A model generated the notes under the pieces. That model made no database searches. It was not told the origin of the DNA and worked only from the letters and a program-made list of their open reading frames with translations. DNA of 64,000 bases from Bacteroidota bacterium. GTDB lineage: Bacteria > Bacteroidota > Bacteroidia > B-17B0 > Aurantibacillaceae. A program made the position numbers and the translations under genes. Where the stretch lies: NCBI GenBank assembly GCA_018267825.1, contig JAFDXR010000013.1, positions 140,275 to 204,274 on the forward strand, given 5' to 3'. Shown piece by piece: positions 34,845 to 63,900 of this stretch; the stretch's first letter is position 1; each line of letters opens with the position of its first letter.

Positions 34845-34858
34845 TGTAATCGGAAATT

Positions 34859-35149: not shown

Positions 35150-35150
35150 T

Positions 35151-35780: not shown

Positions 35781-35782
35781 GA

Positions 35783-36403: not shown

Positions 36404-36492
36404 TTTGTTTTATTATTTACGTTAATTAATTTTTTGTTTCTTACTCTCGTTATCTCACCTGTACTGCAAGGGCAGCCCATGATGAGGGCCTG

Positions 36493-36798: not shown

Positions 36799-36821
36799 TT
36801 TATATTGATCAAAAACGTTAA

Positions 36822-38930: not shown

Positions 38931-38936
38931 TATAAA

Positions 38937-39404
38937 TTAGAATCTAAAGTGTGAAAACGCTTTGTTAGCTTCTGCCATTTTATGTACATCTTCTTTCTTT
39001 TTGAAAGCTGCACCCTCTTCTTTTGACGCTGAAACGATTTCACCGGCTAATTTCTGAGCCATTGATTTTTCGTTACGTTTACGGGCGTAGGTAATCATCC
39101 ATTTGATCGCCAGAGCGGTTTTACGCTCAGGACGGATTTCAGAAGGAATCTGGAAAGTAGCACCACCTACACGACGTGAACGAACCTCAACCTGAGGTGT
39201 TACATTGGCAAGGGCTTTTTTCCAAACTTCCAGTCCGTCTTCATTGGTACGTTTTGCAACGATCTCAATGCACTCATGGAACAATTTAGATGCGGTATTC
39301 TTTTTACCGTCATACATCAGGCTATTCAAAAAACGAGTAACCAATACATCGTTATAAATAGGATCTGGTAATAATATTCTTTTTTTGGCGGTTGACTTTC
39401 TCAT
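38937..39404 (-). CDS. rpsG: 30S ribosomal protein S7
   Basis: A 155-aa protein that organises the 30S head and, in E. coli, represses the str operon. [20 protein letters not shown], then [39 protein letters not shown] and the C-terminal helices. 6 bp before fusA. Confidence 0.97.
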
Positions 39405-39930: not shown

Positions 39931-39960
39931 GAAATTGTTGAAAAATTATTCAATAAAAAA

Positions 39961-39984
39961 CGCCCTTCCGTATTTGGAAGGGCG
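39961..39984. terminator. Terminator after the 2112-aa giant gene
   Basis: CGCCCTTCC (39961-39969) and GGAAGGGCG (39976-39984) form a perfect 9-bp stem with a 6-nt loop; A-run before and T-run after. It lies 27 bp after the stop of the giant gene and before the rpsL promoter. Confidence 0.9.
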
Positions 39985-40011
39985 TTTTTATGTATTTTAT
40001 TCCCCTGAACC

Positions 40012-46380: not shown

Positions 46381-46788
46381 TTATTTTTGCTGACCTTGCT
46401 GGCTCATGGAAGCCATTTTGCGACGTACAGATTCAACGAGGATATCCTGGTGTGTCATATAAAACTGATCTACCAGGGTATTATATCCACCAACGCCGTA
46501 GCTTTTATCGTATTTAGGGAAATCAGCCGGAAGTTCTTTTACCGTAAGATTGCTTAAGAACTCTTCTTTGCGGCCCTGATAGGGATCGTTCTCATCTAAT
46601 TGAAAAGACTTGCCGTTTGTTTCAACCTGTGTGATCTGTTTGGTTTCTGTAGCCTGGCCAAACTGACGACGACCGACTTCTTTCGTATTCGACGGCTGTT
46701 CTTTGGCTTTTACGCCACCTGTTTGTGCGTTCATCGGGGAAAACGACACAATGCAACCTACGAATAGGGCTGGAAAAATAAATCTCAT
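46381..46788 (-). CDS. Small secreted protein next to a giant adhesin, 135 aa
   Basis: A 135-aa protein with a signal peptide (MRFIFPALFVGCIVSFSPMNA before QTGG). The mature part of about 114 residues is hydrophilic and probably largely helical or disordered, rich in Gln, Lys and Glu, with KELPADFPKYDKSYGVGGY and a C-terminal helix VESVRRKMASMSQQGQQK. No cysteines in the mature part and no T9SS tail. It is transcribed from its own promoter (46814-46821) and its stop lies 30 bp before the 2112-aa giant, so the two are probably one operon. I do not recognise a family. An accessory or chaperone role for the giant is possible on context only. Confidence 0.65.
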   Translation of the reverse strand: MRFIFPALFVGCIVSFSPMNAQTGGVKAKEQPSNTKEVGRRQFGQATETKQITQVETNGKSFQLDENDPYQGRKEEFLSNLTVKELPADFPKYDKSYGVGGYNTLVDQFYMTHQDILVESVRRKMASMSQQGQQK

Positions 46789-46813: not shown

Positions 46814-46821
46814 CAAATTTA
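46814..46821 (-). promoter_or_regulatory. Bacteroidota -7 element (TAAATTTG)
   Basis: TAAATTTG on the minus strand fits TAnnTTTG and is about 25 bp upstream of the 135-aa gene ATG. A TTG lies 23 bp further upstream, slightly longer than the usual spacing. It would drive the small gene plus the 2112-aa giant. Confidence 0.55.
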
Positions 46822-46929
46822 GAAAACTGGCACTCTTTCTAAAACAATTTTTAAGCCTAAGTGATTATTTTTTCCAACATATTTCCGGTACTGTGGGAAG
46901 GCTATGAACATTTAAACGTTTTAGCAAGT

Positions 46930-46964
46930 AAAAGGCCCGTTTTGCTGAGCAAAACGGACCTTTT
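46930..46964. terminator. Terminator after the 1844-aa giant gene
   Basis: A 16-bp stem with a single mismatch (46930-46945 with 46949-46964) and a 3-nt loop, AAAAGG...CCTTTT at its base. It lies about 24 bp after the stop of the giant gene and isolates it from the next unit. Confidence 0.9.
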
Positions 46965-46987: not shown

Positions 46988-49900
46988 TTACCTGTATAAA
47001 TTCACTGTTCCATTTCTTTCAATGGTATGCCCATCGTAGCCATCTGCTTTTACAAAGTAGAAATAGGTACCATCAGGTACGAGAGCACCTTGTCCTGTTT
47101 TCCCATCCCATCCGGCTTTCGGGCCACTGAATTCATAGAGTTTTTCACCCCAGCGATTAAATATCTCAAGTGTAATTTCTTTTACACCTGTTGATTTTAT
47201 AGTAAACACATCATTCACACTATCATTATTAGGTGTAAACACGTTTGGAATTTCGAGGCTGAGTCCGTCTTCCACAACGATTGTTGCATAGGCTGTATCC
47301 GAGCAGGGGCCGGCTGTTGCTATCAAAACAACCGTATAGGTACCCTGGCTGTTATATACTGTATTTGGGTCGGTTGCCGTACTCGACGAGCCATTTCCGA
47401 AAGTCCAGCTATACCCCATAGCACCGGAACTCTGGTTTGTAAAATTAACGGTCAAAGGTGCTATTCCTGAAGTCTGATCAGCTGTAAATGCTGCAGACAC
47501 GGAGTTCTGACTTACACTAACGGTTGCCGTACTGGTACATCCGTTTGCATTATCTGTAGCGGTAACTACGTATGATCCCGCATCGGCAATTGTTGGAGTC
47601 GCTGTATTTGATCCGGAAATTATACTGTTTGCATTCGGGCCGCTCCATGAATATGTAACATCTGTGTTTGTACTACTTGCGTTCAGGGTTGTAGAATTGG
47701 CAGCACATGGAATACTTCCTGAAGGGGCAGTAAACGAAGGAGGTGTTGTATTACCGGTTACCGTATATTGTGCAGCCACTGTACAACCACTGGCCGTATT
47801 CATTACGATGACATCCACAATCCCTGCCGATGTTACATCTATATTCTGAGTATTTGCTCCACCCGGATTCCATGTATATGTAACACCGCTTGATGGTGTC
47901 GTAACTGCCGATACCGTTACCGTTGGGCTTAAACAGCTGATGATACTGTTCGTTGAAACAGCGTTAATGGATGCTGTTGGTGCAACTGTATTTCCGACAA
48001 CACTGCCGGTTGCTGTATTTGTACAACCGTTTACGGCATCAGTTACTATCACATCATAATTTCCAACCTGGTTTGCATTGATTCCGGAGCCGTTAGATGC
48101 TCCCGTAATTCCGGGACCGGTCCAGCTGTAATTTACAGTACCGGTTGCGCTTACCGTAGTTGAAATAGCCACTGTTGTTACATTACACGATAGTGTTTGT
48201 GTAGGACTTATTGTTAACGTCGGTATTGTTGTGTTTGTGACAACCGTTACATTGGCCGTCGTGGAACAACTGTTCGCTGTATTGGTGAGGGTAAGTGTAT
48301 AAACACCAGGTGTATCAAAAACCGGGGCAGACGATGTTCCTCCGCTCAGTGGTGACGGAGACCATGCATAACTAACCGGGGTATTGGTTGTTGTTGCTGT
48401 TGCGCTTACGGTGGATGCAACGCATGTAAGAGACAAAGTACCGGCTGATAAACTGACTGTAGGAACTGATGCATCAGCATAAACTGTTGCTGTGGATACA
48501 GAAGATACGCAACCGTTCACAGTATTTGTAACAACTACCGAGAATTCACCGATGCCACTTGCTACCGGCGAGGATACAGATGCATTATCCAGGGAACCTG
48601 TTCCCGGTGAAGTCCAAGAATACGTAACAGAAGCTGTTGATGTATTGGCTGTGAGCTGCACTGTTGGTGAAGCACATGTTGTGGTAAAAGTTGAAGGGTT
48701 CACCGTTACAGTTGGTATTGTAAGATCCGATGGTACTGTAATGTTAGCATTACCGGTACATCCATTCACCTGATCAGTAATGACTACGCTGTAATTTCCT
48801 CCCTGTGTAACCGTTGGCGTGGCTACCGCGGTTCCGGTAATACCGGCTGTCGGAGTCCACGAATAATCATAGGCTCCTGAAGGACTTGCATTCAATGTTA
48901 AACTATTCACCACACAGGTAATCGTTCCGGTAGGAGAAATGGCCGCCGTAACGGCAGTAGTATTTGTTGGAACAAAGGTTGTAATAGTTGATGCGCAACC
49001 TGTCAGGGTATTCGTAACAACACATTGATACGTTCCTCCGGTTGTAACGGTGCCGCTCGGAGATGATGAGCCGGTTACAGATCCAGGCCCGCTCCAGTTA
49101 TAGGATACAGGTGTCATCGTTGTTGTAGCAGTAATCTGAACGGAGGTGTTTGCACATGTGATAGACCCTGAAACGGAAGCTGCAACAGAAGGTGTACCGA
49201 TACTTGGCACCACATCTACAGTTCCTGAACTGGTACAGGCATTCGCCGGATCGGTTATTGTTAATGTATACGTTGCCGGCGAACATGCTGATGCCGTAAA
49301 AGAAGCTGCGCCTGAACAAACACCACCTGTCCACACAGCCGTACATGTAGAAGGATTAGCAGCCCCCGCCAGGCTTACTGTTGGCGATGCACAGGTTATT
49401 GTCTGAGTTGCAGGCATTGCCACAGATGGCGTTGCTGTATTTTGTGTTACGCTGCTTGTTGCAGTTCCCACACACCCGTTGGCAGTATTTGTAACGGATA
49501 ACGTATAAACACCTGGTTGATTCACAGATGGTGTGGCTGTGTTGGCTCCGCCTGTGATTCCACCACCGGTCCATGTGTACGTAACACCGGCACCCGGAGT
49601 ACCAGTAAGGTTAATTGTAGTTGCTGTACAGTTCAGTACAGCTGGCAATGCTATGGATGGTGTGGTAACTGTTGTATTTTGCGTCACCGCAGCTGTGCCG
49701 GTAGTTTTGCAACCATTGGTGGTATTGGTAACTGTATAAGCATAAGAACCACCGGCGTTTACAACCACTGTTGAAGTCGCTCCACCGGAAACAATTCCCG
49801 GTCCTGTCCATGTGTATGCAACAGGTGTCGCCGTTGTTGAAATAACAGCCTGAGCGGTTGTTGTTGTACACGACAGCGAGTTCGAAACTGCTGATGTAGC

Positions 49901-52522
49901 AACCGGTGTAGCTGTATTCTGGCTTACTGTTGTTACAGCTGTTGCGGTACAATTATTAACAGCATCGGTTACCTTCAATGTATACGTGCCCGGAGCTGTA
50001 GCAATAGCATTCTGAGAGTTAGTACCTCCACTGAACCCCGGTCCGCTCCACTGATACGTGACACCAGCTGCAGGACCTCCGCTTAACTGCACGGTTGATG
50101 TTGTGCAGCTTAACGTGGCCGAATTGCTGGCGGTTGGTGATGGCGTGGTTGTATTTTGAGCTACAGTGGTTACTGCAGTATTGGTACATCCGTTTACAGT
50201 GTTTGTAACCAACAAAGTATATGTGCCGGGCGCCGTGGCAACAGCATTCTGAGAGGTTGTACCTCCGCTGAATCCCGGACCACTCCACTGATACGTTACC
50301 CCTGCTGCCGGGCCACCGCTTAATTGCACGGTTGATGTTGTACAGCTCAGTGTAGCCGAATTACTGGCGGTTGGTGATGGTGTGGTGGTATTTTGTGCTA
50401 CAGTGGTTACTGCAGTATTGGTACATCCGTTCACTGTATTTGTAACCAATAAAGTATATGTACCGGGTGCCGTGGCAACTGCATTCTGAGAGGTTGTACC
50501 TCCGCTGAATCCTGGACCACTCCACTGATAGGTGACTCCGGTTGCCGGACCACCGCTTAATTGCACTGTTGATGTTGTACAGCTTAATGTAGCCGAGTTA
50601 CTGGCGGTTGGTGATGGCGTGGTGGTGTTTTGAGTTACGGTGGTTACAGCAGTTGCCGTGCAACCGTTTATTGCATCTGTTACTTTTAAAGTATATGTAC
50701 CGGGTGCAGTTGCAACAGCATTTTGAGAGGTGGTGCCTCCACTGAGGCCAGGTCCGCTCCATTGATAGGTAACCCCCGATGCCGGCCCTCCATTTAACTG
50801 AAGTGTGGATGTGGTACAGCTCAGGGTGCCCGTATTCGATGCTGTCGGTGAAGGCGAAGTTATATTCTGAACAACCGTAGTTACCGCAGATGCCGTACAG
50901 CTATTTACCGCATCGGTTACTTTTAAGGTATATGTACCGGGTGCAGTTGCAACAGCATTTTGAGAGGTTGTGCCTCCGCTAAAACCAGGGCCACTCCATT
51001 GGTATGTAACTCCCGATGCGGGTGTGCCGCTCAATTGAAGGGTTGATGTAGTACAGCTTAAGGTACCCGTATTTGATGCCGTGGGCGATGGTGTTGTTGT
51101 ATTCTGAACGACGTTTGTTACAGCTGTATTGGTGCAACCATTCACGGTGCTGGTTACTTTTAATGTATAGGTTCCAGGTGCCGTGGCGACAGCATTCTGA
51201 GAAGTTGTACCACCACTGAATCCCGGGCCACTCCATTGATAGGTAACACCTGCCGCAGGACCACCGCTTAATGCAACTGTATTTGTGGCGCAGGTGAGTG
51301 TAGCGCTATTGCTGGCTGTTGGAGAAGGCGTGGTTGTATTCTGAGTTACACTTACGGTTTTTGTATTGGTACATCCTGAGTTTGTTACCGTTAATGTATA
51401 GACCCCACCCTGGTTTACAACAGGAGTTGCCGAAGTTCCGCCGGAGACAATTCCCGGACCTGACCAGCTATATGTACCGCCGCCCGATCCGCTCAGGGAT
51501 ATATTAGGGCTTGAACATGTAATTGTAGAAGGTGCTGTAATAGATGCCGTTGCGCTGTTGACTGTTACGGTAACTACCTTTGAATCCTGTATACAGGTAC
51601 CTACATTACTTCCGCCCACCGTGTAGCTTGTGGTTACCGTTGGCGAAACAACAATAGAACTTGCTGTTGAACCGGTCGACCAACTATAGGTGGTTGTTCC
51701 GCTGGCTGTAAGGGTTGCCGACTGCCCCGTACATATTGTTGCATTTGCTGCATTAACTGTGGGAGATGTACACGATATCCCTGCCTGCTGCAGAAATACC
51801 CCGGAATCATAATACGGGTCGCCACCATCAACGATAGCAAGTCTCAGGTGATACGATGCACAAGGGGTTACATTGGCACTTGCGGTTAATACGGTTGTCA
51901 TCCCATCGTATACGATTGTTGAGCCGCTGTTTGAAATATAGTATGCGCTGTGTGCAGAACTGTTAATGTTATCGATATTAACCGGCAGCGATGTTCCGGG
52001 TACAACAGCCATGTTATACAGGTTATAATTACCCCCTGAAGGGTTCGGTCCGGAAATGAAGAATCCAAACGCGTCATTATACCCTGCTCCGACATATTCA
52101 GGATATTCTTCTGAGGCAAACTTATAATTGATTTTCAAATTATTACACTTTGGTTCAATATCAAATTCGAGCATGCATAAATCATAGGAAGAACTTGAAC
52201 CCGTTAATGGCGCCCAAGCTGAACCTGAAGTTATTCCGTTATTTACGCTGGAATTTGTCCCGTTGCCATTTGCTATATTGGCCGCTGTTCCGGTAGTCAG
52301 TACAATACCATTACCAAGACCGAGATTTGTTGTACCTCCATTTGAAAAAAGTCCGTTAGCATTTGTCGGACAGGTCAGAACCGGATTAGTAATGACTACC
52401 CCTCCCCCTAAAAGAGAGTTGGCAAGGTTTGCTGCAGTTTGATTTGGGGTTACGACTAACTGTGCTTTTGCACACATAAATGTTGTAAAAATTCCAATGA
52501 ACAGCGTGTAAAATTTTCTCAT
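46988..52522 (-). CDS. Giant T9SS type B surface protein, 1844 aa, with choice-of-anchor-L-like head
   Basis: The signal peptide (MRKFYTLFIGIFTTFMCAKA) is followed by a head of about 230 residues resembling the 'choice-of-anchor L' domain (TPNQTAANLANSLLGGGVV, then GIVLTTGTAANIANGNG, LEFDIEP, FASEEYPEY and NDAFGFFISGP). Around 17 Ig-like repeats follow, including six 79-aa near copies at about residues 398-871. A PKD domain and the type B sorting domain (EIPNVFTPNNDSVNDVFTIK ... GTVNLYR) close the protein. The stalk domains match those of the 2112-aa and 1239-aa giants in the same order. Exported by Sec and then the type IX system. It follows the TMTC-like gene at 52608 by 85 bp with no terminator between, and ends at a hairpin terminator. 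Confidence 0.85.
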   Translation of the reverse strand: MRKFYTLFIGIFTTFMCAKAQLVVTPNQTAANLANSLLGGGVVITNPVLTCPTNANGLFSNGGTTNLGLGNGIVLTTGTAANIANGNGTNSSVNNGITSGSAWAPLTGSSSSYDLCMLEFDIEPKCNNLKINYKFASEEYPEYVGAGYNDAFGFFISGPNPSGGNYNLYNMAVVPGTSLPVNIDNINSSAHSAYYISNSGSTIVYDGMTTVLTASANVTPCASYHLRLAIVDGGDPYYDSGVFLQQAGISCTSPTVNAANATICTGQSATLTASGTTTYSWSTGSTASSIVVSPTVTTSYTVGGSNVGTCIQDSKVVTVTVNSATASITAPSTITCSSPNISLSGSGGGTYSWSGPGIVSGGTSATPVVNQGGVYTLTVTNSGCTNTKTVSVTQNTTTPSPTASNSATLTCATNTVALSGGPAAGVTYQWSGPGFSGGTTSQNAVATAPGTYTLKVTSTVNGCTNTAVTNVVQNTTTPSPTASNTGTLSCTTSTLQLSGTPASGVTYQWSGPGFSGGTTSQNAVATAPGTYTLKVTDAVNSCTASAVTTVVQNITSPSPTASNTGTLSCTTSTLQLNGGPASGVTYQWSGPGLSGGTTSQNAVATAPGTYTLKVTDAINGCTATAVTTVTQNTTTPSPTASNSATLSCTTSTVQLSGGPATGVTYQWSGPGFSGGTTSQNAVATAPGTYTLLVTNTVNGCTNTAVTTVAQNTTTPSPTASNSATLSCTTSTVQLSGGPAAGVTYQWSGPGFSGGTTSQNAVATAPGTYTLLVTNTVNGCTNTAVTTVAQNTTTPSPTASNSATLSCTTSTVQLSGGPAAGVTYQWSGPGFSGGTNSQNAIATAPGTYTLKVTDAVNNCTATAVTTVSQNTATPVATSAVSNSLSCTTTTAQAVISTTATPVAYTWTGPGIVSGGATSTVVVNAGGSYAYTVTNTTNGCKTTGTAAVTQNTTVTTPSIALPAVLNCTATTINLTGTPGAGVTYTWTGGGITGGANTATPSVNQPGVYTLSVTNTANGCVGTATSSVTQNTATPSVAMPATQTITCASPTVSLAGAANPSTCTAVWTGGVCSGAASFTASACSPATYTLTITDPANACTSSGTVDVVPSIGTPSVAASVSGSITCANTSVQITATTTMTPVSYNWSGPGSVTGSSSPSGTVTTGGTYQCVVTNTLTGCASTITTFVPTNTTAVTAAISPTGTITCVVNSLTLNASPSGAYDYSWTPTAGITGTAVATPTVTQGGNYSVVITDQVNGCTGNANITVPSDLTIPTVTVNPSTFTTTCASPTVQLTANTSTASVTYSWTSPGTGSLDNASVSSPVASGIGEFSVVVTNTVNGCVSSVSTATVYADASVPTVSLSAGTLSLTCVASTVSATATTTNTPVSYAWSPSPLSGGTSSAPVFDTPGVYTLTLTNTANSCSTTANVTVVTNTTIPTLTISPTQTLSCNVTTVAISTTVSATGTVNYSWTGPGITGASNGSGINANQVGNYDVIVTDAVNGCTNTATGSVVGNTVAPTASINAVSTNSIISCLSPTVTVSAVTTPSSGVTYTWNPGGANTQNIDVTSAGIVDVIVMNTASGCTVAAQYTVTGNTTPPSFTAPSGSIPCAANSTTLNASSTNTDVTYSWSGPNANSIISGSNTATPTIADAGSYVVTATDNANGCTSTATVSVSQNSVSAAFTADQTSGIAPLTVNFTNQSSGAMGYSWTFGNGSSSTATDPNTVYNSQGTYTVVLIATAGPCSDTAYATIVVEDGLSLEIPNVFTPNNDSVNDVFTIKSTGVKEITLEIFNRWGEKLYEFSGPKAGWDGKTGQGALVPDGTYFYFVKADGYDGHTIERNGTVNLYR
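49909..51330 (-). repeat. Six tandem 237-bp repeats in the 1844-aa giant
   Basis: Six head-to-tail copies of the same 79-aa unit as in the 2112-aa giant (GGPAxGVTYQWSGPGFSGG core). In copies 4 and 5 the protein differs at one residue across the unit. A 165-nt stretch I compared by eye (about 50120-50530) has about 11 nucleotide differences, all silent. Exact period 237 bp. Confidence 0.85.
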
Positions 52523-52607
52523 AGATTGTTTCAGATATGTTACTAAAAATATAACATTTTTTTAAATCAAAAAAAACGTTTATTATAGTATTGCTATCCG
52601 AACAAGG

Positions 52608-54488
52608 TCATTCGCTCAGCAAATCAACTATTCTACTCAATTGACGGTTATTCGGGTCCTCTTTCAAGGCCTCTTTGTAATAATTTTTCGCCGCAAGCGT
52701 ATCTTTTTCAGCCATATAGAAATTGGCAATCATGATATTGAAACGGTTATTTTTATCACCAGAATTTAATCTATTCTTAAAAAACTGAATTCCATCTTCA
52801 GTTTTACCAGCGTCAACTAAGATCTGAGATATCAAATCCAGGGTTACATTACTTTCAGGATCGTTTCTGAATGCTTTGAATACATATTTTTCGGCCAGCT
52901 CATATTGTTTCGTTTTGTAATATGAAAAAGCCAGGTTATAAATAACTTCAAATTTCGTAGTATCGTAATAGTATGCCTTCTTCAAATAAGGAATTGATCC
53001 GGCGTAATCCTTGTGACCATTGAGCCTGATAAAGGCAAGGTTATTATATGCATTTACATTTGTCGAGTCTGCGGCAACCGCACTAAGCAAAGCCTTTTCT
53101 GATTTTTCGATGTAGTAAGCTGCTTTACTTTTGTCGAGTGTTCCTTTTTTATTGGCAAGATCCGCCAGAACCTCACTCGCATAAAGTGTATTCAACTTTA
53201 CGGATCCCGGATACTTCTCCATGTCGGTTTCAAACAAGGTGATTTTATCTTTCCAGTCCTTGTTTCGCTGTATAACCACCCCTCCACAGATACACGCTAC
53301 CATACACAATACCAAAGCTGTATTGCGGTTCAACTCTAACAACTGAGAAGGCCATTTACGATTTATATAGGTGAGTATGAAGTAAACAACAGCAATACAA
53401 AATCCAATAGATGCGAAAAATAAAAACCGTTCGGCAACAATACCTGAAACAAGTTTGACAATATTCAGGTACATGGATATGCTTATACCCAAAAAAACAA
53501 CGCCTGCCCATAACGGATGAAACGGCGGCTTCATATACTTTATAAAAACCCAGACCCCAAAAGCAAAAACCAGAATGCCGAGAAGGGCATAAAAAGAAAA
53601 CATATTTGAAACAGGGATGGTATCGTAGCCATAGTAGCACGACATATCCGAAGGAAAGATGAGCATTTTGGCATAAAACCCAAGCGAATTTATTCCGGCA
53701 ATTAACCGTGATGCAAACGAATGATCGGATACGAGAGGGTTTTCGAAAAATTCAAAAACCCGGTGTACTTCACTTTTTTCGAGCATCATTCTTTTCAAAA
53801 GACGAGCCAGTAACAAACCAATAAAAAAAACCAGCGATATGCCCATTAACAGCTTCGGTTTTAATCCGTATCTTTTGTAGAATAAAAGCGGAAATAAAGC
53901 CAGGTAAGGCAAAGCATCCAACTTGCTGAGAAAAGCAAGTGATGTAAGGAAAAGTCCTGCACAGAGGAATTTAAGATTTTGTGTGTTAAAATATTCATCG
54001 AACATCAGAAAAGCCCACCACGAAAAAATAAAACACAGCATCACATCTCTGTTCTTCAGACTTGCCACAACTTCCGAATGAACCGGTAATACAGCAAACA
54101 ACAAGGCCACCAATAGACTATATGTTATGGGGAGTTCCGAAAATAGCCGCTTCAATGCTTTAAACAATATCCAGATACAAACAGCGTAAAGAAGAATATT
54201 AAAAAAGTGGCTCACTTCCGGACGGACTCCAAAAAACTGGTGTTCAATGGCGAAACTGACTTTTACAACAGGCCTGTATTCATATACATTCCCCCCGTCA
54301 TTGTTAACGTAATAGGATGTAAATATCTTCTTAATAGATTTTAATCCTTTGGTGCTGACATCATGAATAGTAACAAAATTATCGTCAAGGCTATAGCCAT
54401 TACGCAATGTATTGCCATACAAAATAAAAGCTATAATAAAAAACAGAAGGAAATGTCCGTTCAGTAATTTGGTTTTAAAACCACTCAT
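52608..54488 (-). CDS. TMTC-like GT-C membrane glycosyltransferase with TPR tail, 626 aa
   Basis: About ten transmembrane helices in residues 1 to about 420, followed by a soluble C-terminal TPR region (NAYNNLAFIRLNGHKDYAGS, IYNLAFSYYKTKQYELAEKY). The first loop has YSLDDNFVT (the acidic DD pair of PMT/TMTC enzymes), YEYRPVVKVSFAIE, and the VLPVHSEVVASLKNRD block (the HP.H.E signature of TMTC). A middle segment, ENPLVSDHSFASRLIAGINS, then LIFPSDMSCYYGYDT, recalls the DUF1736 part of TMTC. Human TMTC proteins transfer O-mannose to cadherin beta-sandwich domains. The enzyme should act on exported proteins at the periplasmic face of the inner membrane. It lies 85 bp upstream of the 1844-aa giant with no terminator between, which suggests that giant as acceptor. 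Activity and sugar are inferred. Confidence 0.8.
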   Translation of the reverse strand: MSGFKTKLLNGHFLLFFIIAFILYGNTLRNGYSLDDNFVTIHDVSTKGLKSIKKIFTSYYVNNDGGNVYEYRPVVKVSFAIEHQFFGVRPEVSHFFNILLYAVCIWILFKALKRLFSELPITYSLLVALLFAVLPVHSEVVASLKNRDVMLCFIFSWWAFLMFDEYFNTQNLKFLCAGLFLTSLAFLSKLDALPYLALFPLLFYKRYGLKPKLLMGISLVFFIGLLLARLLKRMMLEKSEVHRVFEFFENPLVSDHSFASRLIAGINSLGFYAKMLIFPSDMSCYYGYDTIPVSNMFSFYALLGILVFAFGVWVFIKYMKPPFHPLWAGVVFLGISISMYLNIVKLVSGIVAERFLFFASIGFCIAVVYFILTYINRKWPSQLLELNRNTALVLCMVACICGGVVIQRNKDWKDKITLFETDMEKYPGSVKLNTLYASEVLADLANKKGTLDKSKAAYYIEKSEKALLSAVAADSTNVNAYNNLAFIRLNGHKDYAGSIPYLKKAYYYDTTKFEVIYNLAFSYYKTKQYELAEKYVFKAFRNDPESNVTLDLISQILVDAGKTEDGIQFFKNRLNSGDKNNRFNIMIANFYMAEKDTLAAKNYYKEALKEDPNNRQLSRIVDLLSE

Positions 54489-54550
54489 ATATTCTTTGGT
54501 CTTTCGTTTGGTTCTGCCGGATAAATTTAAGATTTAAACAGTAATAAAAA

Positions 54551-54570
54551 AGCACCCTGACCAGGGTGCT
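54551..54570. terminator. Terminator after the 1239-aa giant gene
   Basis: AGCACCCTG (54551-54559) and CAGGGTGCT (54562-54570) form a perfect 9-bp stem with a 2-nt loop, plus an A-run before and T-run after. It lies 27 bp after the stop of the 1239-aa giant and before the 626-aa TMTC-like gene. Confidence 0.9.
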
Positions 54571-54596
54571 TTTCATATTTATGTATGTTTATGTCC

Positions 54597-57500
54597 TTAT
54601 CTGTATAGATTGACAGTTCCATCCTTATCGATGACCTTGCCATCAAAGCCCGTAGCTTTTACAAAATAGAAATAGGTGCCGTCCGGAACTGTAGATCCCT
54701 GGCCGGTTTTACCATCCCATCCGGCTTTTGGCCCTGTGAATTCAAACAGCTTCTCACCCCAGCGATTAAATATCTGCAGACTGATTTCTTTCACGCCGGT
54801 TGATTTAATCGTAAAGATATCATTGATACTATCGTTATTCGGGGTGAACACGTTTGGAATTTCGAGTGTGAGCCCATCGCTTACCACAATTGTCATGTAA
54901 GCTGTATCAGCACAAGGGCTGGCGCTGGCAATGAGCATTACCACATAGGTTCCACCCGTAGTGAAAGTATTGCTTGGATCGGTTGCCGTACTATTCGGAC
55001 TACCATCCCCAAATACCCATGTGAATGACGTTGCTCCGACACTCTGATTTGTGAAGTTTACAACAAGCGGCGCAATACCTGATACCGGGTTTGCAGTAAA
55101 GGCAGCCTGCACATTGGTCTGCACAACAGATACTGTCGATGTTGTAAAGCATCCTGAGATAGTATCCGTAGAGGTAACCGTGTAGGTTCCTGCATCTGCA
55201 ATAACCGGATTAGCCGAATTTCCGCCCGAAATAATGCTACCTGCATTCGGGCCTGTCCAGCTATATACGACATTTGTATTTGTACTGCTTGCCGAAAGTG
55301 TTGAACTGGTGGCGCCACAGGCAATAGAGCCATTCGGTGTTGAAACAACAGGCGCTGTTGTACTGCCGCTTACGGAGAATGGAACCGTTACCGAGCAACC
55401 ATTGGCAGTGTTCAGGACTGTAACTCCTCCTGCTCCGGCATTACTAACCACGATGGTTTGTGCCGTAGAACCACCCGGAGTCCAGTTATACGTAAGGCCT
55501 GAAGCCGGTGTCGTATTTACTGTGAGAGAAACGCTTGGCGCACTACATGAGATAACCGAGTTTGTAGATACTGTTGTAACCGTGGCCGTTGGCGCTACCG
55601 TATTGGTTGACACAGAACTTGTATCTGTATTGACGCAACCATTTGACGTATTTGTTACACTGATTGTATATGTTCCAGCTTGATTCACCGTTACACCCGC
55701 ATTGTTCGGAGAACCGGTAATGCCAGGCCCTGACCAGACGCATACTGTAGGACCGGAGGCGGCTATTGTTGCATTTATTACGGATGTCAGATTAGCACAA
55801 TCAATTACATTACCCGGTGCAATAGCTATTGTCGGACGTACCGTATCCATAACCACCGCTACATTTCCGTTGGTAGAGCAGCCATTAACAGTGTTTGTTG
55901 CAACTACAGAATATGTTCCCGGTGTATCAAATACAGGATTGGAGGTGCTGCCACCACTCAGTGGATTTGGAGACCAACTATAACTTAATGGCGTTGGAGT
56001 GGATGTAACCGCAACACTAACTGTAGTTGTTACGCATGTGATGGACAGTGTAGAGGCCGACATGGATATCGATGGCACGTTGGCATCAGGAACAACCGTA
56101 GCTGTTCCGGGGCTTGCCGCTGATGAACAGCCTGTTGCAGTGCTTGTAACCACAACAGTAAATACACCACTTCCACTGGCTATTGGATTAGCAATGCCTG
56201 AATTATTTAACGATCCTGTTCCCGGTGAAGTCCAGCTGTAAGTTACACCAGGATCCGATGAGTTTGCTGTTAGCTGTACTGTAGGGGATGCGCAGGATGT
56301 GGTATACGACGATGGGCTTACTGAAACTGTTGGCGATGTTGTATTGGTAGGCACTGTAATATTGGCATTACCAGTACAACCGTTAATGGTATTTGTAATC
56401 ACTACAGAATAATTACCTCCCTGATTCACAACCGGTGTGGCTGTAGTTCCTCCGCTCACAATTCCTGTGCCGGTCCAGTTATAATTATAGTTAGCGCCAG
56501 TAGGACTTGCACTCAGTGCGAGCGTTGTGGTTGTACAGGTTATTGAGCCGGTTGGTGCAATAGAAGCCGCAACCGGTGTTGTATTTGAAGGCACATTGGT
56601 CGTCACTGTCGTAGAACACCCTGTGAGTGTATTCGTAATAACGCATTGATATGTTCCTGCAACGGAAACAGTTCCTGTTGATGTAGCGGCTCCTGAAACA
56701 GCACCAGGACCAGACCATGTATAGGATACGGGTGTAGATGTTGTCGTTGCCACAACCTGGGCCGTGGTTGTGGTGCAGGTAATAGAACCGGAGTTTGACG
56801 CTGTAGCAGCAGGAATATTATTGCTTGACACAACGGATTCTACAGCAGATGACGTACAACCGTTTGCCGGATTAGTAACCGTAAGGGTGTAGTTCCCCGC
56901 TGAACATGCTGTGGCGTTATAAGAGGTTGATCCTGCACATACGCCACCTGTCCATACCGGTGTACATGTTGATGGTGTAGCTGAACCGGAAAGCGATGCA
57001 GACGTTGAAGCACAGGTAATGGTTTGTGTACCCGAAACTGTAACGGTTGGGGCTGTTGTATTTTGCGTCACTGTAACTACAGAAGGCACCGAGTTACAAC
57101 CGGCAGATGTTACTGTAAGACTATAAGAGCCCGGTTGATTGATAACAGGATTTGCTGTGGAGCCACCGCTCACAATACCGGGTCCGGTCCAGCTATAAGT
57201 TCCTCCGCCTGAACCCGCGAGCGTTGTGCTTGTATTGGCGCAGGTAAGCACGGCCGGTGAACCGGCATTAGCTGTTGGTATTGGATTAACAGTGAATGTT
57301 ACCGATGCGCAGGTTGTTGTATTACAGGTTCCCACTGCTCTTACATAATACGTTGTGGTTGATGATGCTGACACTATAATGCTGCTACCGGATCCCACAG
57401 ATGTTCCACCGCAGCTACCCGAATACCATTGCCAGGTGGCACCGGTACCAAGACTACCTCCTGCAAGCGTAAGTGTAGTTGTACCTGATCCGCAGACCGA

Positions 57501-58316
57501 TGTTGGATTGGCTGAAGCCGAAGTCGGCGCTGAAGATGGTGTATTGGGCACGACAGTTAAACAAGTCTGAGGACTTGTACCACAGAGGTTTGTTGCTTTC
57601 ACACAGATGCTACCACCGGAACTACCCGGTGTTACGTTTATGGATGTAGTTCCCTGTCCGGAGTTAATGGTCCAGCCGGCAGGAACTGTCCATGTGTAAG
57701 ATGCCGCATTTGCAACAGCCGGTATGGAGTAGGTTTGCGCCATACCTGCACAAAACACTGTAGACCCTGAAATAGCTCCGGGCTGTGTGGCAGGTGTAGC
57801 CTGGTTTGCCGGAGCATAGGTTAATGTAAGGGTCAGCTTATTAATACATACATTGGCTCCGGTACAGAGCTGGAGTGAATTTGACCCCCCGTTGTTGTAA
57901 CCTGGCAAACCGCAAGGGAAATTACTACTTGACGAAGCGCTGATCCCGCAGGGGTTATTGGAACAGGCACATCCTGTATTTCCTTCATTTACGGTGGGTA
58001 CTGCGTTGCCATTAATAGTAGCTGAGAGTGAACCTCCGGAACAATCGGCACTATAATATCCGACTAACACTGAGGTTACGATATTACCGGCTGGCACAGG
58101 GTCAATAAATGTTTTGGTCCCACAGGGAGCTGTATTTCCGCAATAGCTGCTCAGTGTATTGAAACAGTAGTAATCAGCGCCACACACCGTACATCCACCA
58201 CAACCCTGAAAACCTGAAAAGGTGATTGTGGTTGTCGCCACAGATTGCGCTATTGTCTGTTTTGACAAAGTCAGTGCAACCAAAATAATAATGCAGGAAA
58301 GTAAACGTTTTGCCAT
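54597..58316 (-). CDS. Giant T9SS type B surface protein, 1239 aa, with Cys-rich head
   Basis: The signal peptide (MAKRLLSCIIILVALTLSKQ to TIAQ) precedes an unusual Cys-rich head of about 140 residues (GFQGCGGCTVCGADYYCF, CGNTAPCG, NTGCACSNNPCG and FPCGLPGYNNGGS). Two PKD/Ig-like modules follow (AGMAQTYSIPAVANAASYTW, ATWQWYSGSCGG), then the shared stalk of Ig-like domains found in the two larger giants (TITCASTSASLSGSATPSTC, SYTTSCASPTVQL), the PKD domain and the type B sorting domain (EIPNVFTPNNDSINDIFTIK, FNRWGEKLFEF, GTVNLYR). It lacks the long 79-aa arrays. It lies 47 bp after the 149-aa secreted-protein gene. The Cys-rich head has no family I recognise. Confidence 0.85.
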   Translation of the reverse strand: MAKRLLSCIIILVALTLSKQTIAQSVATTTITFSGFQGCGGCTVCGADYYCFNTLSSYCGNTAPCGTKTFIDPVPAGNIVTSVLVGYYSADCSGGSLSATINGNAVPTVNEGNTGCACSNNPCGISASSSSNFPCGLPGYNNGGSNSLQLCTGANVCINKLTLTLTYAPANQATPATQPGAISGSTVFCAGMAQTYSIPAVANAASYTWTVPAGWTINSGQGTTSINVTPGSSGGSICVKATNLCGTSPQTCLTVVPNTPSSAPTSASANPTSVCGSGTTTLTLAGGSLGTGATWQWYSGSCGGTSVGSGSSIIVSASSTTTYYVRAVGTCNTTTCASVTFTVNPIPTANAGSPAVLTCANTSTTLAGSGGGTYSWTGPGIVSGGSTANPVINQPGSYSLTVTSAGCNSVPSVVTVTQNTTAPTVTVSGTQTITCASTSASLSGSATPSTCTPVWTGGVCAGSTSYNATACSAGNYTLTVTNPANGCTSSAVESVVSSNNIPAATASNSGSITCTTTTAQVVATTTSTPVSYTWSGPGAVSGAATSTGTVSVAGTYQCVITNTLTGCSTTVTTNVPSNTTPVAASIAPTGSITCTTTTLALSASPTGANYNYNWTGTGIVSGGTTATPVVNQGGNYSVVITNTINGCTGNANITVPTNTTSPTVSVSPSSYTTSCASPTVQLTANSSDPGVTYSWTSPGTGSLNNSGIANPIASGSGVFTVVVTSTATGCSSAASPGTATVVPDANVPSISMSASTLSITCVTTTVSVAVTSTPTPLSYSWSPNPLSGGSTSNPVFDTPGTYSVVATNTVNGCSTNGNVAVVMDTVRPTIAIAPGNVIDCANLTSVINATIAASGPTVCVWSGPGITGSPNNAGVTVNQAGTYTISVTNTSNGCVNTDTSSVSTNTVAPTATVTTVSTNSVISCSAPSVSLTVNTTPASGLTYNWTPGGSTAQTIVVSNAGAGGVTVLNTANGCSVTVPFSVSGSTTAPVVSTPNGSIACGATSSTLSASSTNTNVVYSWTGPNAGSIISGGNSANPVIADAGTYTVTSTDTISGCFTTSTVSVVQTNVQAAFTANPVSGIAPLVVNFTNQSVGATSFTWVFGDGSPNSTATDPSNTFTTGGTYVVMLIASASPCADTAYMTIVVSDGLTLEIPNVFTPNNDSINDIFTIKSTGVKEISLQIFNRWGEKLFEFTGPKAGWDGKTGQGSTVPDGTYFYFVKATGFDGKVIDKDGTVNLYR

Positions 58317-58363
58317 GATACTTTTTTTAAATTAAACAATTCAGAAAAACTACCTATATGGTT

Positions 58364-58813
58364 TTATTGAGCGCGGGTAACAAAAATGTGAGATTGTATA
58401 AACTCCGCATTTTTTTTCTTGTCGGCATCCGTCTGATTCGGATTCACTTTCAAGACAAGCTTTACCAGATTTGGATCAGTAGTACTGCATGAGCCCTCAA
58501 CGGATGATGCTGCAGGAATCGTAACAATTTCAACAGGGCTTTCCGCACTGAGTTGAAAACTTACTTTTACGGCGTAATCATTCTGATTAATTAATTTTAA
58601 AAGTTTCACCTTCTCTGATCCGCAATCTTCGTTATGTTTATAGAACAACACGCCATTACGCAGGTTATTACCATCAGCATCCAGCTTAACAGAATTCCAT
58701 AATTCTGCAGGATGTGATAATGTAGCTTCTTTATAAACAGGATTCTGTGACCGAAGACCAGAAAATGAACACAGAACAAGAAATAATGAAATTGTGATAT
58801 TCGTTGGTTTCAT
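58364..58813 (-). CDS. Small secreted Cys-containing protein next to a giant adhesin, 149 aa
   Basis: Signal peptide MKPTNITISLFLVLCSFSGL to RSQNPVY; the mature part of about 125 residues looks beta-rich: LWNSVKLDADGNNLRNGVLF, EKVKLLKLINQNDYAVKVSF, ESPVEIVTIPAASSVEGSC and VKLVLKVNPNQTDADKKK. Two mature Cys (EDCGSE and EGSCST) could form a disulfide. No lipobox and no T9SS tail, so probably periplasmic or released. It has a consensus promoter of its own at 58843-58873 and precedes the 1239-aa giant by 47 bp. Sandwiched between the second TMTC-like gene and the giant, it may be a dedicated accessory protein. I do not recognise a family. Confidence 0.65.
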   Translation of the reverse strand: MKPTNITISLFLVLCSFSGLRSQNPVYKEATLSHPAELWNSVKLDADGNNLRNGVLFYKHNEDCGSEKVKLLKLINQNDYAVKVSFQLSAESPVEIVTIPAASSVEGSCSTTDPNLVKLVLKVNPNQTDADKKKNAEFIQSHIFVTRAQ

Positions 58814-58842
58814 AGGGGTTTGTGTTAACGGTTACTACTAAC

Positions 58843-58873
58843 AAATATACAATAGTTTAGCAATAATCCAAAT
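58843..58873 (-). promoter_or_regulatory. Consensus promoter (TTTG, 19 bp, TATATTTG)
   Basis: TTTG (58870-58873) and TATATTTG (58843-58850) on the minus strand match both Bacteroidota boxes with exactly 19 bp between them, the best promoter seen in the island. It lies in the 93-bp gap between the 649-aa TMTC-like gene and the 149-aa gene and would drive the small gene and the 1239-aa giant independently of the enzyme. Confidence 0.75.
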
Positions 58874-58906
58874 ATATTTTTCTGCAGAATGCGCGAAACA
58901 AACCGA

Positions 58907-60856
58907 TTATTGAGTATCCAGTTTCCGGGCTTCAGAATTGCGTCCGATCGACTTAAGGAAAGAAATAACCTGATTCCGAAGAGCCGTATTTTCCGTATTA
59001 AGCTGAACCGCCTTCTCAAATTCAGAAATACCATTTACTGTATCGTTACAGAGCATGTAACTATTCCCAAGATTAATATGAAGTCCGGGATCTGAGGGGC
59101 TTTTACCAAGGGCTTTTAAATCGCTGACTACAGCTTTACTGTATAACTTTTTCGCGATATAAAGTTCTCTTAACCTGATATAAACCGGCAAATAATCCGT
59201 CCCGTTTTTAACGTACTGTTCGTAATACAGCATGGCCGAATCGGGAAAATTCAATCGTTCGAAACAATAAGCATAATTGTATTGTGTGATCTTATTATCT
59301 GCATCTGTTTTAAGTGCCTGTTTAAAGAAAGGGGCAGCCGCAGCAGGATCATTGAGCACATCGACATAAATAGTTCCGAGGTTGTTCAGGGTTGTATGAT
59401 CTGCCGGGTAATTTTTAACCCCTTCGGCCATGAGCTGAGCAGCCTTTTTGTAATGACCTCTCGCCTCTTCCAGAAGCCTGCCCTTCGCTGCATTATCCGT
59501 TGTACGCGTTATATCGTTGTATAAATGGTTGGCCAGGATATAGTGCAGATTGCAAGAAGCGTCGAAATGTTTTATATCATTACGGAACAGGGTAAGTTCG
59601 TCTTTCCAGTCGGAATTGCGCGACATGGTTATTCCTGAGAAAACCAAGATGAGGCTTATACAACCCAGCCAGAATGAAGTGCTTATATTTCTGAAACCGG
59701 GCTTTTGAGTTTTCGGATCAATTTTAAACAGTTTCAATATTAAAAAAGCCCCTGCAATGCACTCCCCCCAGGAAGCAAAATAAACAAAGCGGTCGGCAAC
59801 AATGCCCGGCATAAGCCTTACCATGTTTGAAAATGCCGCGAGACCGATCAAAAAAAGGATGAGTCCAAAAGATAAGGGTGTTTTTTGCAGGAATTGACGG
59901 AAAGCATAAAATACAATTAAAAGAAAAATAATAACTGCTAAAATAACGCCAGGTGTGATTTCATGGGTTCCAGGTACAGTATTATAACCATAATAGCACG
60001 ACAATGGGTATGGAAAAATCATAAGCCTGAGATAATATGTCAATGTCCCCAGAACAAAAAGTAGCCGGATTCCAACCCCCTTTTCATAGAAGAGCGGGTT
60101 TTCAAAAAAAGCAAATTCCCTCATTGTAGAATCTGCGTTTACCAGCCCGAATTTCATCAACCGCTGACAGAGTAACGCCATACACATGAAAAGAAATATG
60201 AACAGGATTCGCTTCCATTTCAACGAAGTAAAAAAGTACAATATCAGCGGCAAGACTATCAGAAACAATCCTCCGGTTGCTTTGCTAAGCAAGGCGAGAA
60301 AAAGAAAAAGCGCAGCCAGTGTCATATACAACCATGTTTTCTTTTCGAGTGAACGCAGAACACACCCCAATGAACTCACTCCAAATAAAAAAGATAATAT
60401 CTCGTCGCGGTTTTTGATACTGGCTACAACTTCTGAATGGATCGGATGCACCACAAACAAGAGTGTTGCCAGAAATGGAAATAAAATATGGTACGTTGCA
60501 AATAAGCGGTACAATAATCTGAAAAGTAACATGCAGGTCAAGGCATAAAGCAATACGTTTATGAAGTGACTGATGTGAGGATTACTCCCGAAAAACTCAT
60601 ACTCCAGGGCAAAGCTTACCAATACCAGGGGCCTGTAATCGAAACGCTGCTGGTCCATTTCGACGTAATGAGTTTTTAAAATCCTCGGAATCCCCTGTAT
60701 CCCCTTACTTACGCGCGATTGCCTGATAGCATCAGGCGAAGTAACCGTAACATAATTATCATCGAGAGCATATTCATGTCGGATCGTATTTCCATAGATC
60801 AGAAATACCAAAACCAAAATAAGGAGAGTCAGTTTGTTTTCAAGATGCCATTTCAT
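58907..60856 (-). CDS. TMTC-like GT-C membrane glycosyltransferase with TPR tail, 649 aa
   Basis: A paralogue of the 626-aa protein. N-terminal hydrophobic helix LLILVLVFLIYGNTI, then EYALDDNYVTVTS (acidic pair), DYRPLVLVSFALEYEFFG, the VVHPIHSEVVASIKNRDE signature, a middle segment with FFENPLFYEKGVGIRLLF and MIFPYPLSCYYGYNTVPG, and a C-terminal TPR region (LNNLGTIYVDVLNDPAAAAP, YNYAYCFERLNFPDSAMLYY, LHINLGNSYMLCNDTVNGIS). About ten membrane spans. Predicted periplasm-facing transferase using a lipid-linked sugar, like PMT and TMTC. The TPR part may bind the acceptor. It sits between two giants: 18 bp beyond its 5' side is empty before the 60915-60942 terminator, and its 3' side leads into the 149-aa/giant unit without a terminator. 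Sugar and acceptor unproven. Confidence 0.8.
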   Translation of the reverse strand: MKWHLENKLTLLILVLVFLIYGNTIRHEYALDDNYVTVTSPDAIRQSRVSKGIQGIPRILKTHYVEMDQQRFDYRPLVLVSFALEYEFFGSNPHISHFINVLLYALTCMLLFRLLYRLFATYHILFPFLATLLFVVHPIHSEVVASIKNRDEILSFLFGVSSLGCVLRSLEKKTWLYMTLAALFLFLALLSKATGGLFLIVLPLILYFFTSLKWKRILFIFLFMCMALLCQRLMKFGLVNADSTMREFAFFENPLFYEKGVGIRLLFVLGTLTYYLRLMIFPYPLSCYYGYNTVPGTHEITPGVILAVIIFLLIVFYAFRQFLQKTPLSFGLILFLIGLAAFSNMVRLMPGIVADRFVYFASWGECIAGAFLILKLFKIDPKTQKPGFRNISTSFWLGCISLILVFSGITMSRNSDWKDELTLFRNDIKHFDASCNLHYILANHLYNDITRTTDNAAKGRLLEEARGHYKKAAQLMAEGVKNYPADHTTLNNLGTIYVDVLNDPAAAAPFFKQALKTDADNKITQYNYAYCFERLNFPDSAMLYYEQYVKNGTDYLPVYIRLRELYIAKKLYSKAVVSDLKALGKSPSDPGLHINLGNSYMLCNDTVNGISEFEKAVQLNTENTALRNQVISFLKSIGRNSEARKLDTQ

Positions 60857-60914
60857 ATATCCGGTTTTATCTGCCTGCTATTAAATATAATCAAAGTCTG
60901 TTAAGTATAATAAA

Positions 60915-60942
60915 AAAAGCCTTCGGTTTTCCGAAGGCTTTT
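60915..60942. terminator. Terminator after the fourth giant gene
   Basis: AAAAGCCTTCGG (60915-60926) and CCGAAGGCTTTT (60931-60942) pair perfectly over 12 bp with a 4-nt loop. It lies 18 bp after the giant's stop and separates it from the 649-aa TMTC-like gene. Confidence 0.92.
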
Positions 60943-60960
60943 TTCTCAATTGATTCTTTA

Positions 60961-63900
60961 TTAGCGATACAGGTTTACTGTACCATTCTTCTCAATAACT
61001 TTATCATCAAAGCCTTTGGCTTTTACAAAGTAGAAGTATGTTCCGTCAGGCACTTTGGCGCCATGTCCTTCACGACCATCCCATCCGGCTTTTGGTCCGG
61101 TGAAAGAGTACAGTACCTGACCCCAGCGGTTAAAGATTTCCAGGCTGATTTCTTTCACACCGGTTGATGTAATGGTGAATACATCGTTGATACTGTCGCC
61201 ATTCGGAGTAAACACGTTTGGAATTTCGAGCGATAAACCTGCTTCCACATAAATTGTAGCCACAGCGGTATCGGAACAAGGTCCGGCTGTTGCAATCAAT
61301 ACAACTGTATATGTAACATTTGAACTTCCGGTATAAGTGTGCGAAGGATTCGTAGCATTTGAGTTTGCACTGCCGTCACCAAAAATCCAGGTGTAACCGG
61401 TTGCACCGGCACTCTGATTGGTAAATGCAACGTCCAGCGGCGAAATACCGCTTGTCGGGTTTGCCGTAAATGCGGCTGTTACCGAACTCTGACTAACCGT
61501 TGCCACAGCGGTTGCAGTACATCCGTTCACGGCATCAGTTACAAGCACTGTGTAAGAACCTGAATCTGCCACTGTAGGATTATTGGTAGTACCTCCACTG
61601 AGAATACTTCCTGCATTCGGGCCGGTCCAGCTGAACGAAACATTTGGCGTGGTACTGTTTGCCAGAATTGTTGTAGACGGCGATCCACAGGCAATTACCG
61701 TATTTGTTACTGTAACATTCGGTGGTGTTGAGCTTCCTGTTACCGAAATAGTATCTGTTGCTTTACAGCCTGTGAGTGTATTTGTAACAGCAATCACATA
61801 GGTCCCGGATACACTGGTTGTAGCAATACTGCTGTTAGCGCCGGAAGCAATACTTCCGCTAATCGATGTCCAGCTGTATGTAATATCCGGTCCTGTAGTA
61901 GATCCGCTGGCATCCAGGGTAGCTGTAGTTGCCGCGCAGCTCAGACTTGTTGTAGGTGCAATGGTTGCTGTAGGCGGCGTATTATTCACGCTCACCGTTA
62001 CACTCTGCATGGCTGTACAACCGGTAAGCAGATCCGTGATGGATAATGTATAGGTACCTGCAGCATCTACAGAAACAACAGAATTTGTTGTTGATGTCAG
62101 AATATTTCCACCGGTTGTTGTCCAGTTATATGAGTAATTAGGTCCTGAGTCAGAATTTGATCCGTCGAGTGTAATCGTTGGACTGCTGCAGGTAATATTT
62201 GCCGGCGGCACGATTGTATCTTTAGGATATGGTGCTACAATAATCGGGAACAGGAACTGTTTGGTGCAACCGCCACTTGTAATGTATACGTTGTATGAGG
62301 AAGATGCACCCACTGTATCGACAATTGTACTGGATGTTGATGTAACCGGGGTCCAGGAATATGTATAGGTTCCTGTTCCACCTCCAGGTGTAATAGCAAT
62401 AGTAAATGAAGAGTTCACACACACCGTATCATTTGGTATGAATGTCGGTGAAGCGGTAATCGGGTTAGCCGATACACTTCCGGACACTGCACTCAATGCG
62501 CTTGGTGTACAACCCGGGATAACAGACTGAACATATACTGTATAAGCACCTCCAGCTGTTCCTATATACTGGCTGTAGTTTAATGAGTTGCTCGATTGAA
62601 CCAGGGTTGTTCCACCCGGATCCGAATACCAGTTGTATGTAGTGGCACCGGCAACAGGATTTGCCCCCACCTGAACCTGGCCAATATCGCAGGCAGAACC
62701 CGGAATAACTGTTGGTGCAGGCACTACTGTAGGACTCACAACAACCGGTGTAAGTGTACTTGTACAGCCACCTGAATTTGTACTGCTTACATAAACGGTA
62801 TAGTTAGATGACACAGGGCTCAGAGAGTAAGTACTTCCTGTTGCTAGCAATGTTCCGGAAGCCGGAGCATTATACCACTCGAAGGTTACGCCGGCCGGTG
62901 CTGTTGCACTGAATGTTGTAACACCTCCAACACATGCCGCGGTAGCCGAAGCTGTCGGCGAAGCCGGAATCGGATTCACTGTAATGGTTGTTGTAACCGG
63001 CAATAATGCACCGCAACAGTTTGAATTCAGGTTCAGCGTTACAGTATATGTAATAGGTGTTGAGCCTGTGTTGTCGAATGTAATAGATGTAGAACCCGAC
63101 GTTGCAGCAGCTACAGTTGCAGTAGCCGGTGAAACTGACCAGCTGTATAATAAACCTGATGTTCCGATTGCAGTACTTGCAAAGTTCGCCGTTCCGGGAC
63201 AGATAACTGCAGCCGAGGCAACGATAGATCCCGTACTTGGAGGGTTTACAATGATATTATTGAAATCCGTGTAGTTATTGGCATTCATCACAATGGTTTT
63301 ACGACCCAGTGTTGAATAAATGGTTGTTGCTGGCGAACCGGAACCGGATGCAGGTGCTGCACCTGTACCAAAGGACGTCCAGCTTGGACTGGCCGCAGCT
63401 GTATTGTGATCGATCGATACGTTTGTACAGGCCTTGTTATCGACTGTGATAACAGGTTGTGCCAACATGTTCAATGTTGAGTTTGTAACGAGCGCACTAC
63501 CACCAACCAGTTTAACCTGGTTAGCAATACCGGCTCCTCCGGCTCCTCCGGCTGCACCGTTACCACCGTTACCCCCATTTCCACCTTTACCTCCATTACC
63601 TACGTTTGCAGATGCATTACAGGCATTACCGCAACCACCATAAGTTGCATTGGATGCGCTTGCACCACCAGCTCCTCCGGCTCCTCCGGCTCCACCGGTT
63701 CCTCCGGCTCCACCGGCACCAGCTAAACCATTGACAATCTGGCAATCAACAACATATCCATTAGCACCATTGTTATAAATAAAAATTCCGTAGGTTGCTC
63801 CGCCACCGGCTCCGCCGATACCACCGGCTCCACCCTGGCCACCACCACCACCACCGGCTCCGCCGGCACTGGTACCATAAGAAGGGCTACAGCTGGATGT

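Follow-up and report, generated by a model that had tools for sequence, protein, structure and literature searches.

What do polytopic membrane proteins with tetratricopeptide repeat (TPR) tails do among giant, Ser/Thr-rich secreted proteins of a bacterium, and could the former glycosylate the latter? The question is raised by a stretch of 64,000 nucleotides (C4:140275-204274; hereafter, the window) from a 4.82-Mb Bacteroidota genome in 33 contigs, in which genes for proteins resembling the animal glycosyltransferases TMTC1-4 are interspersed with genes for giant cargoes of the type IX secretion system (T9SS). We favour, with a probability of about 0.45, the view that the locus constitutes a surface-protein glycosylation system, in which a neighbouring biosynthetic cluster would load an acylated sugar on a lipid carrier and the TMTC-like enzymes would pass it to the exported giants.

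A search of the same genome revealed that the array exceeds the window and comprises three TMTC-like/giant pairs in tandem, plus a further giant, gN. On the minus strand, its upstream part runs from TMTC-C (654 aa) through the giant gR (1866 aa), a hairpin, TMTC-B (649 aa), the small protein p149 and the giant gG (1239 aa) to a second hairpin, and its downstream part from TMTC-A (626 aa) through the giant gL (1844 aa), a hairpin, a 135-aa secreted protein and gN (2112 aa) to the last hairpin. The open reading frames (ORFs) of 626, 649, 1844 and 1239 aa listed in an earlier note on this DNA are all present at its coordinates on the minus strand; as it had noticed, no terminator separates the 626-aa gene from the 1844-aa giant and giants end at hairpins of their own, which holds for gR, gG, gL and gN. 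It had also described the 649-aa gene as running towards the 1239-aa giant, but the supposedly empty gap of 591 bp is occupied by a 149-aa gene (58364-58813). Three further paralogues, less closely related, are encoded elsewhere in the genome: D (589 aa), E (624 aa) and F (898 aa). The array directly adjoins the str/S10 ribosomal protein operons (window positions 22315-39404), a placement shared by L021, L048 and L056.

The enzymes are very probably extracytoplasmic glycosyltransferases that depend on polyprenyl phosphate, and structure modelling allows us to regard them with confidence as GT-C glycosyltransferases with TPRs. The AlphaFold2 model of the 626-aa protein, built from an alignment with 52 relatives, has a mean pLDDT of 92.7; residues 6-426 match Pmt4 with a Z score of 20.1 over 343 residues, followed by AglB (19.6), yeast OST (19.4) and ArnT (17.0), and residues 430-616 match TPR proteins, with several TPR families above cut-off in the profile search. 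Plain Foldseek with the whole enzyme returned mostly TPR proteins, and the GT-C half was visible with a second aligner. Hydropathy indicates 10-12 transmembrane segments, and the helices of the model are compatible with 11. The DD pair, the YRP block and the TPR tail are present in both enzymes of the window, as described previously, and D35/D36 (626-aa numbering), which occupy the position of the active site assigned to TMTCs and ArnT (PMC7801869), are identical in all 115 non-redundant homologues, so that the catalytic pair on which the earlier proposal hinged is retained. The 626-aa protein accordingly combines the PMT/OST/ArnT-type fold with the acidic residue in the first extracytoplasmic loop that characterizes GT-C enzymes. 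The HP.HSEVVAS signature attributed to both proteins holds, in its HP.H part, for the 649-aa protein, whereas the 626-aa protein reads LPVHSEVVAS.

Whether these proteins are TMTCs in the strict sense is a separate matter. The Pfam domain TMTC_DUF1736 (PF08409) matches the expected loop at 18.8 bits in the 626-aa protein and 20.5 bits in the 649-aa protein, against a cut-off of 27, and no protein of this genome exceeds that cut-off; among the 52 relatives, 33 match at E 0.01 or better (best E 6.4e-8). Because both window proteins fall below the cut-off, we class them as GT-C enzymes that are TMTC-like, not as TMTCs proper; the architecture of GT-C fold plus TPRs is supported, but formal TMTC membership is not. 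Nor do the profiles place them in the PMT family (GT39): PMT_2 is detected in protein B only, at a sub-threshold 20.0 bits, and the profile search found no MIR domain. TMTC-like genes (591-614 aa) also stand three or four in a row in uncultured Bacteroidetes (L077:7710-15065 and L075:8090-13596), without giants or the cluster described next. The window also contains, at 1294-2511 and 2740-4194, adjacent genes for a membrane protein of 405 aa that exceeds the cut-off for PMT_2 and for a protein resembling arylsulfotransferases that bears a T9SS type A tail.

Divergently from TMTC-C lies a cluster encoding a ketoacyl synthase (KASIII), an acyl carrier protein (ACP), a second KASIII (KAS2), a short-chain dehydrogenase/reductase (SDR), a family 2 glycosyltransferase (GT2), a GNAT-family acetyltransferase, PF05118 hydroxylase-like proteins, an MBOAT protein and a sulfotransferase. 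In many genomes, some of which have no giants, the cluster likewise stands beside the enzyme. With both KAS2 and the enzyme scored as present at a best E value of 1e-80 or better, 20 of 31 genomes have a strong enzyme of this clade; KAS2 is found in 17 of these 20 but in none of the remaining 11 (Fisher 4e-6), and in 13 of those 17 it is located within 10 kb of a TMTC-like gene. Tested by independent pairs, giants and the KASIII cluster showed no significant association. The most consistent partner of the enzymes is the cluster, not the giants. Longer TMTC-like proteins (825-862 aa) in L039, L041 and L042 likewise directly precede the KASIII cluster or lie near it, a second linkage with another architecture.

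The gene content of the cluster offers clues to the donor. The GT2 (L009:12660-13580) matches GtrB (1e-33) and ArnC (5e-30) along its entire length, as well as the NCBIfam models for ArnC and PgfS, so that a polyprenyl-phosphate glycosyltransferase stands beside a GT-C enzyme, as in three-component and Pgf-type systems. The small ORF between the two KASIII genes matches the ACP profile, and the GNAT protein resembles PseH, an amino-sugar N-acetyltransferase. In Flavobacterium psychrophilum, the Qui4N of the O-polysaccharide carries a dihydroxyhexanoyl group, whose predicted makers are a pair of ketoacyl synthases, an ACP, a ketoacyl reductase and an acyltransferase (PMC6519341). Because of this parallel and of the GT2, ACP and GNAT matches, the cluster appears to make an acylated amino sugar on undecaprenyl phosphate. 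We consider it somewhat likelier than an even bet that the enzymes obtain their donor from this cluster; the donor is probably an acylated amino sugar and probably not mannose. The O-mannosylation suggested in the earlier note found no support and was set aside in favour of this different donor.

The giants are themselves linked to the enzymes. Homologues were gathered by enzyme sequence alone, and the close ones outside this genome with visible flanks were counted: for 22 of 51 TMTC-like genes (17 of 43 loci), a T9SS giant lies on the same strand no more than three genes downstream. Among control genes of at least 300 aa, taken from 20 stretches elsewhere on the contigs of the relatives, a giant is similarly placed in 7 of 115 cases (Fisher 4e-8 for genes and 1e-6 for loci, values that overstate the certainty because the loci share ancestry and are not independent), and with CHU_C domains numbering 11.5 per Mb over 31 genomes, chance alone would place a giant there in about 2% of cases. 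The anticipated co-occurrence is thus well above both the density and the empirical null. Long enzymes (750 aa or more) are followed by a giant in only one of 16 cases. In an IQ-TREE phylogeny, giants with the gG N-terminus stand behind a single enzyme clade, that of TMTC-B (5/5, SH-aLRT 96), and gL giants behind the clade of the 626-aa enzyme in 4/5. N-termini of the gG type occur in 4 of the 31 relatives, all of which have the enzyme, too few for a test, and weak gN-type N-termini are widespread among the relatives and uninformative. Hence, the notion of a dedicated adhesin-glycosylation locus withstood the scrutiny of co-occurrence and of the DD pair and gained a paralogue-specific pairing, but has to be tempered by the firmer partnership with the cluster. 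In one relative (L021:8506-9770), transposase-like genes (136 and 250 aa) are inserted between the gR-type giant and TMTC-B, in an otherwise intact orthologous pairing.

As to the giants as cargo, the earlier assignment to T9SS is borne out, all four exceeding the curated cut-off for the type B sorting domain (CHU_C/TIGR04131). TIGR04131 scores 54.0 bits in gG (cut-off 35; CHU_C, 73.3), 53.1 in gL (in addition to 215 bits for NF038133), 54.8 in gN (CHU_C, 77.5) and 54.2 in full-length gR; SprA, the sole component of the T9SS machinery searched, is present in the genome at 2411 bits. The giants contain 25-33% Ser+Thr, and gL and gN consist in part of Cys-paired repeats of about 79 aa, Ig-like in gL. 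Their candidate sites for the general O-glycosylation of Bacteroidota, D-S/T-(A/I/L/V/M/T), number 13 against 20.3 expected, the deficit residing in gL (2 vs 5.9) and gN (1 vs 6.0; together 3 vs 11.9), with gG and gR near expectation. By comparison, a set of ten further T9SS cargoes from this genome carries 79 such sites against 50 expected; two of these ten, L144 and L145, the latter also Ser/Thr-rich, are not enriched. Since the sites are scarce in the giants, the general pathway is not an obvious modifier of the repeats, and if the repeats are glycosylated nonetheless, another enzyme class would be needed, a role that the TMTC-like proteins would fit. The scarcity is suggestive of a separate glycosylation enzyme, and we put the chance that the giants are the acceptors of these enzymes at even.

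Small secreted proteins accompany the enzymes and giants. A protein of 149 aa, p149, is predicted to form a small beta-sandwich, for which structure comparison gave no convincing match; it sits between a gene of the TMTC-B clade and a gG giant also in L021, L029, L035, L053 and L127, and was not found in 394 other genomes sampled across the phylum. A protein similar to the 135-aa one directly precedes a gN-type giant in L055/L125. No Pfam family matched either of these or p128 (128 aa; L009:8967-9353), and it is possible that all three, conserved as they are beside enzymes or giants, are partners or chaperones of the giants. In L035 (5364-5660), p128 lies beside a 98-aa TMTC-like stub, apparently a decayed copy. 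The features of the locus are compiled in the table.

Table. Genes, hairpins and promoter matches of the array, with positions in the window unless another sequence is named.
Feature	Position	Strand	Basis
TMTC-like GT-C + TPR protein A, 626 aa	52608..54488	-	ORF; AlphaFold model; D35/D36 invariant
TMTC-like GT-C + TPR protein B, 649 aa	58907..60856	-	ORF; sub-cut-off DUF1736 and PMT_2
TMTC-like protein C, 654 aa, upstream of giant gR	L009:6948-8912, just past the window end		search of the same genome
p149, 149-aa secreted protein, no known family	58364..58813	-	between TMTC-B and gG
Giant gG, 1239 aa, T9SS type B cargo, Ser+Thr 31.9%	54597..58316	-	TIGR04131, CHU_C
Giant gL, 1844 aa, choice-of-anchor L N-terminus, T9SS type B, Ser+Thr 32.6%	46988..52522	-	NF038133, TIGR04131
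Giant gN, 2112 aa, T9SS type B	40012..46350	-	TIGR04131, CHU_C
135-aa secreted protein preceding gN	46381..46788	-	ORF
C-terminal part of giant gR (837-aa ORF; full 1866 aa, to C4:206835)	60961..64000	-	TIGR04131
Terminator hairpin after gR	60912..60945	-	15-pair stem + T tail
Terminator hairpin after gG	54547..54574	-	12-pair stem + T tail
Hairpin after gL	about 46930..46964	-	direct reading of the sequence
Hairpin after gN	39956..39989	.	15-pair stem
Two Bacteroidota-type promoter matches (TTG-N-TAnnTTTG) upstream of p149	58842..58901	-	pattern scan only
Bacteroidota-type promoter match upstream of the 135-aa gene	46814..46847	-	pattern scan only

The favoured pathway would proceed as follows. 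The KASIII, ACP and SDR proteins would build a short hydroxyacyl group, which the GNAT protein would attach to an amino sugar; the GtrB/ArnC-like GT2 would place the acylated amino sugar on undecaprenyl phosphate, and the lipid-linked sugar would be flipped across the inner membrane. There, the TMTC-like enzymes, whose DD pair would mark the catalytic site and whose TPRs would lie in the periplasm, would transfer it to Ser/Thr residues in the Ig-like repeats of the neighbouring giants, once Sec had exported these and before T9SS took them across the outer membrane. A more specific version, which we advance tentatively, resembles the TMTC-cadherin pathway in being cargo-specific: each paralogue would be matched to its own giant, sometimes via a p149-like partner, using the acylated sugar and operating separately from D-S/T O-glycosylation.

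Several observations weigh against glycosylation of the giants by this locus. Many genomes have the TMTC-like gene and the cluster with no adjacent giant (e.g., L056, L129 and L140), and the giants may therefore be hitch-hikers of a surface locus. Giant presence requires 11 state changes on the enzyme tree compared with a mean of 18 after shuffling, so the arrangement is partly inherited. No flippase was recognised among the annotated genes, although no dedicated search for one was made. Finally, enzyme and giants may be driven by separate promoters, judging from pattern matches: those found directly upstream of the intervening p149 mean that TMTC-B and gG need not share a transcript. Matches to sigma-70-type promoters were no more numerous than expected by chance.

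The main competing explanation is that the enzymes and the KASIII/GT2 cluster modify a periplasmic glycan or glycolipid, such as the O-antigen of lipopolysaccharide or the capsule, in the manner of Gtr and ArnT, the giants merely sharing the neighbourhood. It would account for the cluster being the most constant partner of the enzyme and for the many loci without giants, the gene set resembles the R-group genes wfpC-G of the F. psychrophilum O-polysaccharide (PMC6519341), and three-component GT-C systems acting on O-antigens are common (PMC11127046). It sits less easily with three enzyme paralogues beside three giants in one genome, with giants adjoining the enzyme far above chance and each TMTC clade retaining its giant type, and with TPR domains, which suggest protein partners; we hold it to be unlikely, if the least so of the alternatives. 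That the genes are neighbours by chance, or that an old enzyme-giant pair was duplicated in tandem with no link in function, is considerably less probable: with 61 CHU_C domains, this genome is rich in T9SS giants, and a single pair may be the ancestor of all three, yet neither sits well with the enrichment over empirical controls or with a giant-type pairing kept across genomes at about 50% enzyme identity. Most doubtful of all is that the enzymes represent the missing oligosaccharyltransferase (OTase) or the initiating mannosyltransferase of general Bacteroidota O-glycosylation at D-S/T-hydrophobic sites, an idea encouraged by the lack of a known OTase, by mannose being the first sugar and by a suggested likeness to eukaryotic O-mannosylation (PMC12871550). 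Against it stand the paucity of the motif in the neighbouring giants, the ties of several paralogues within a genome to particular cargoes, and the restriction of strong members of this TMTC clade to about 20 of the 31 relatives; the judgement applies to this clade and not to the TMTC-like classes E and F.

Among characterized systems, animal TMTC1-4 (GT105, cadherin O-mannosyltransferases) share with the enzymes described here a GT-C membrane domain whose first loop holds DD, the TPR tail and the presumed beta-sandwich acceptors, but here DUF1736 is below cut-off, the nearby donor genes suggest a sugar other than mannose, the host is bacterial and the cargo is exported by T9SS. The closest working parallels are the Pgf machinery of Streptococcus mutans (PgfS-PgfM1-PgfE-PgfM2, with the adhesins Cnm and WapA) and the three-component systems. 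In S. mutans, the gene of the adhesin Cnm likewise lies beside those of a GT2 of the PgfS/GtrB/ArnC kind, here PgfS, and of a membrane protein of the PMT_2 type, which modify the adhesin (PMC5856776); unlike the present locus, the Pgf system is Gram-positive, lacks the TPR fusion and acyl-sugar genes, and serves several adhesins with a single machinery. Three-component systems (GtrA/GtrB/Gtr; GT136; PMC11127046) also pair a polyprenyl-phosphate sugar synthase with a GT-C enzyme, but their acceptors are O-antigens, whereas the enzyme here bears TPRs and the annotated genes include no recognised flippase. The wfpC-wfpG genes of F. psychrophilum (PMC6519341), likened to the cluster by gene content and not by sequence, share the two ketoacyl synthases, ACP, ketoacyl reductase and acyltransferase, but have a PglD-like acyltransferase and a Wzx/Wzy O-antigen product in place of the GNAT, GtrB-like GT2 and GT-C enzymes found here.

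A literature search, covering few subscription papers or preprints, found no paper describing such a locus. For Bacteroidota, in which the OTase and the flippase of O-glycosylation are listed as undiscovered (PMC12871550), the locus brings together candidates for the enzymes, the donor pathway and the acceptors, and it would provide a bacterial setting for testing the TMTC architecture, functionally known so far only from animals.

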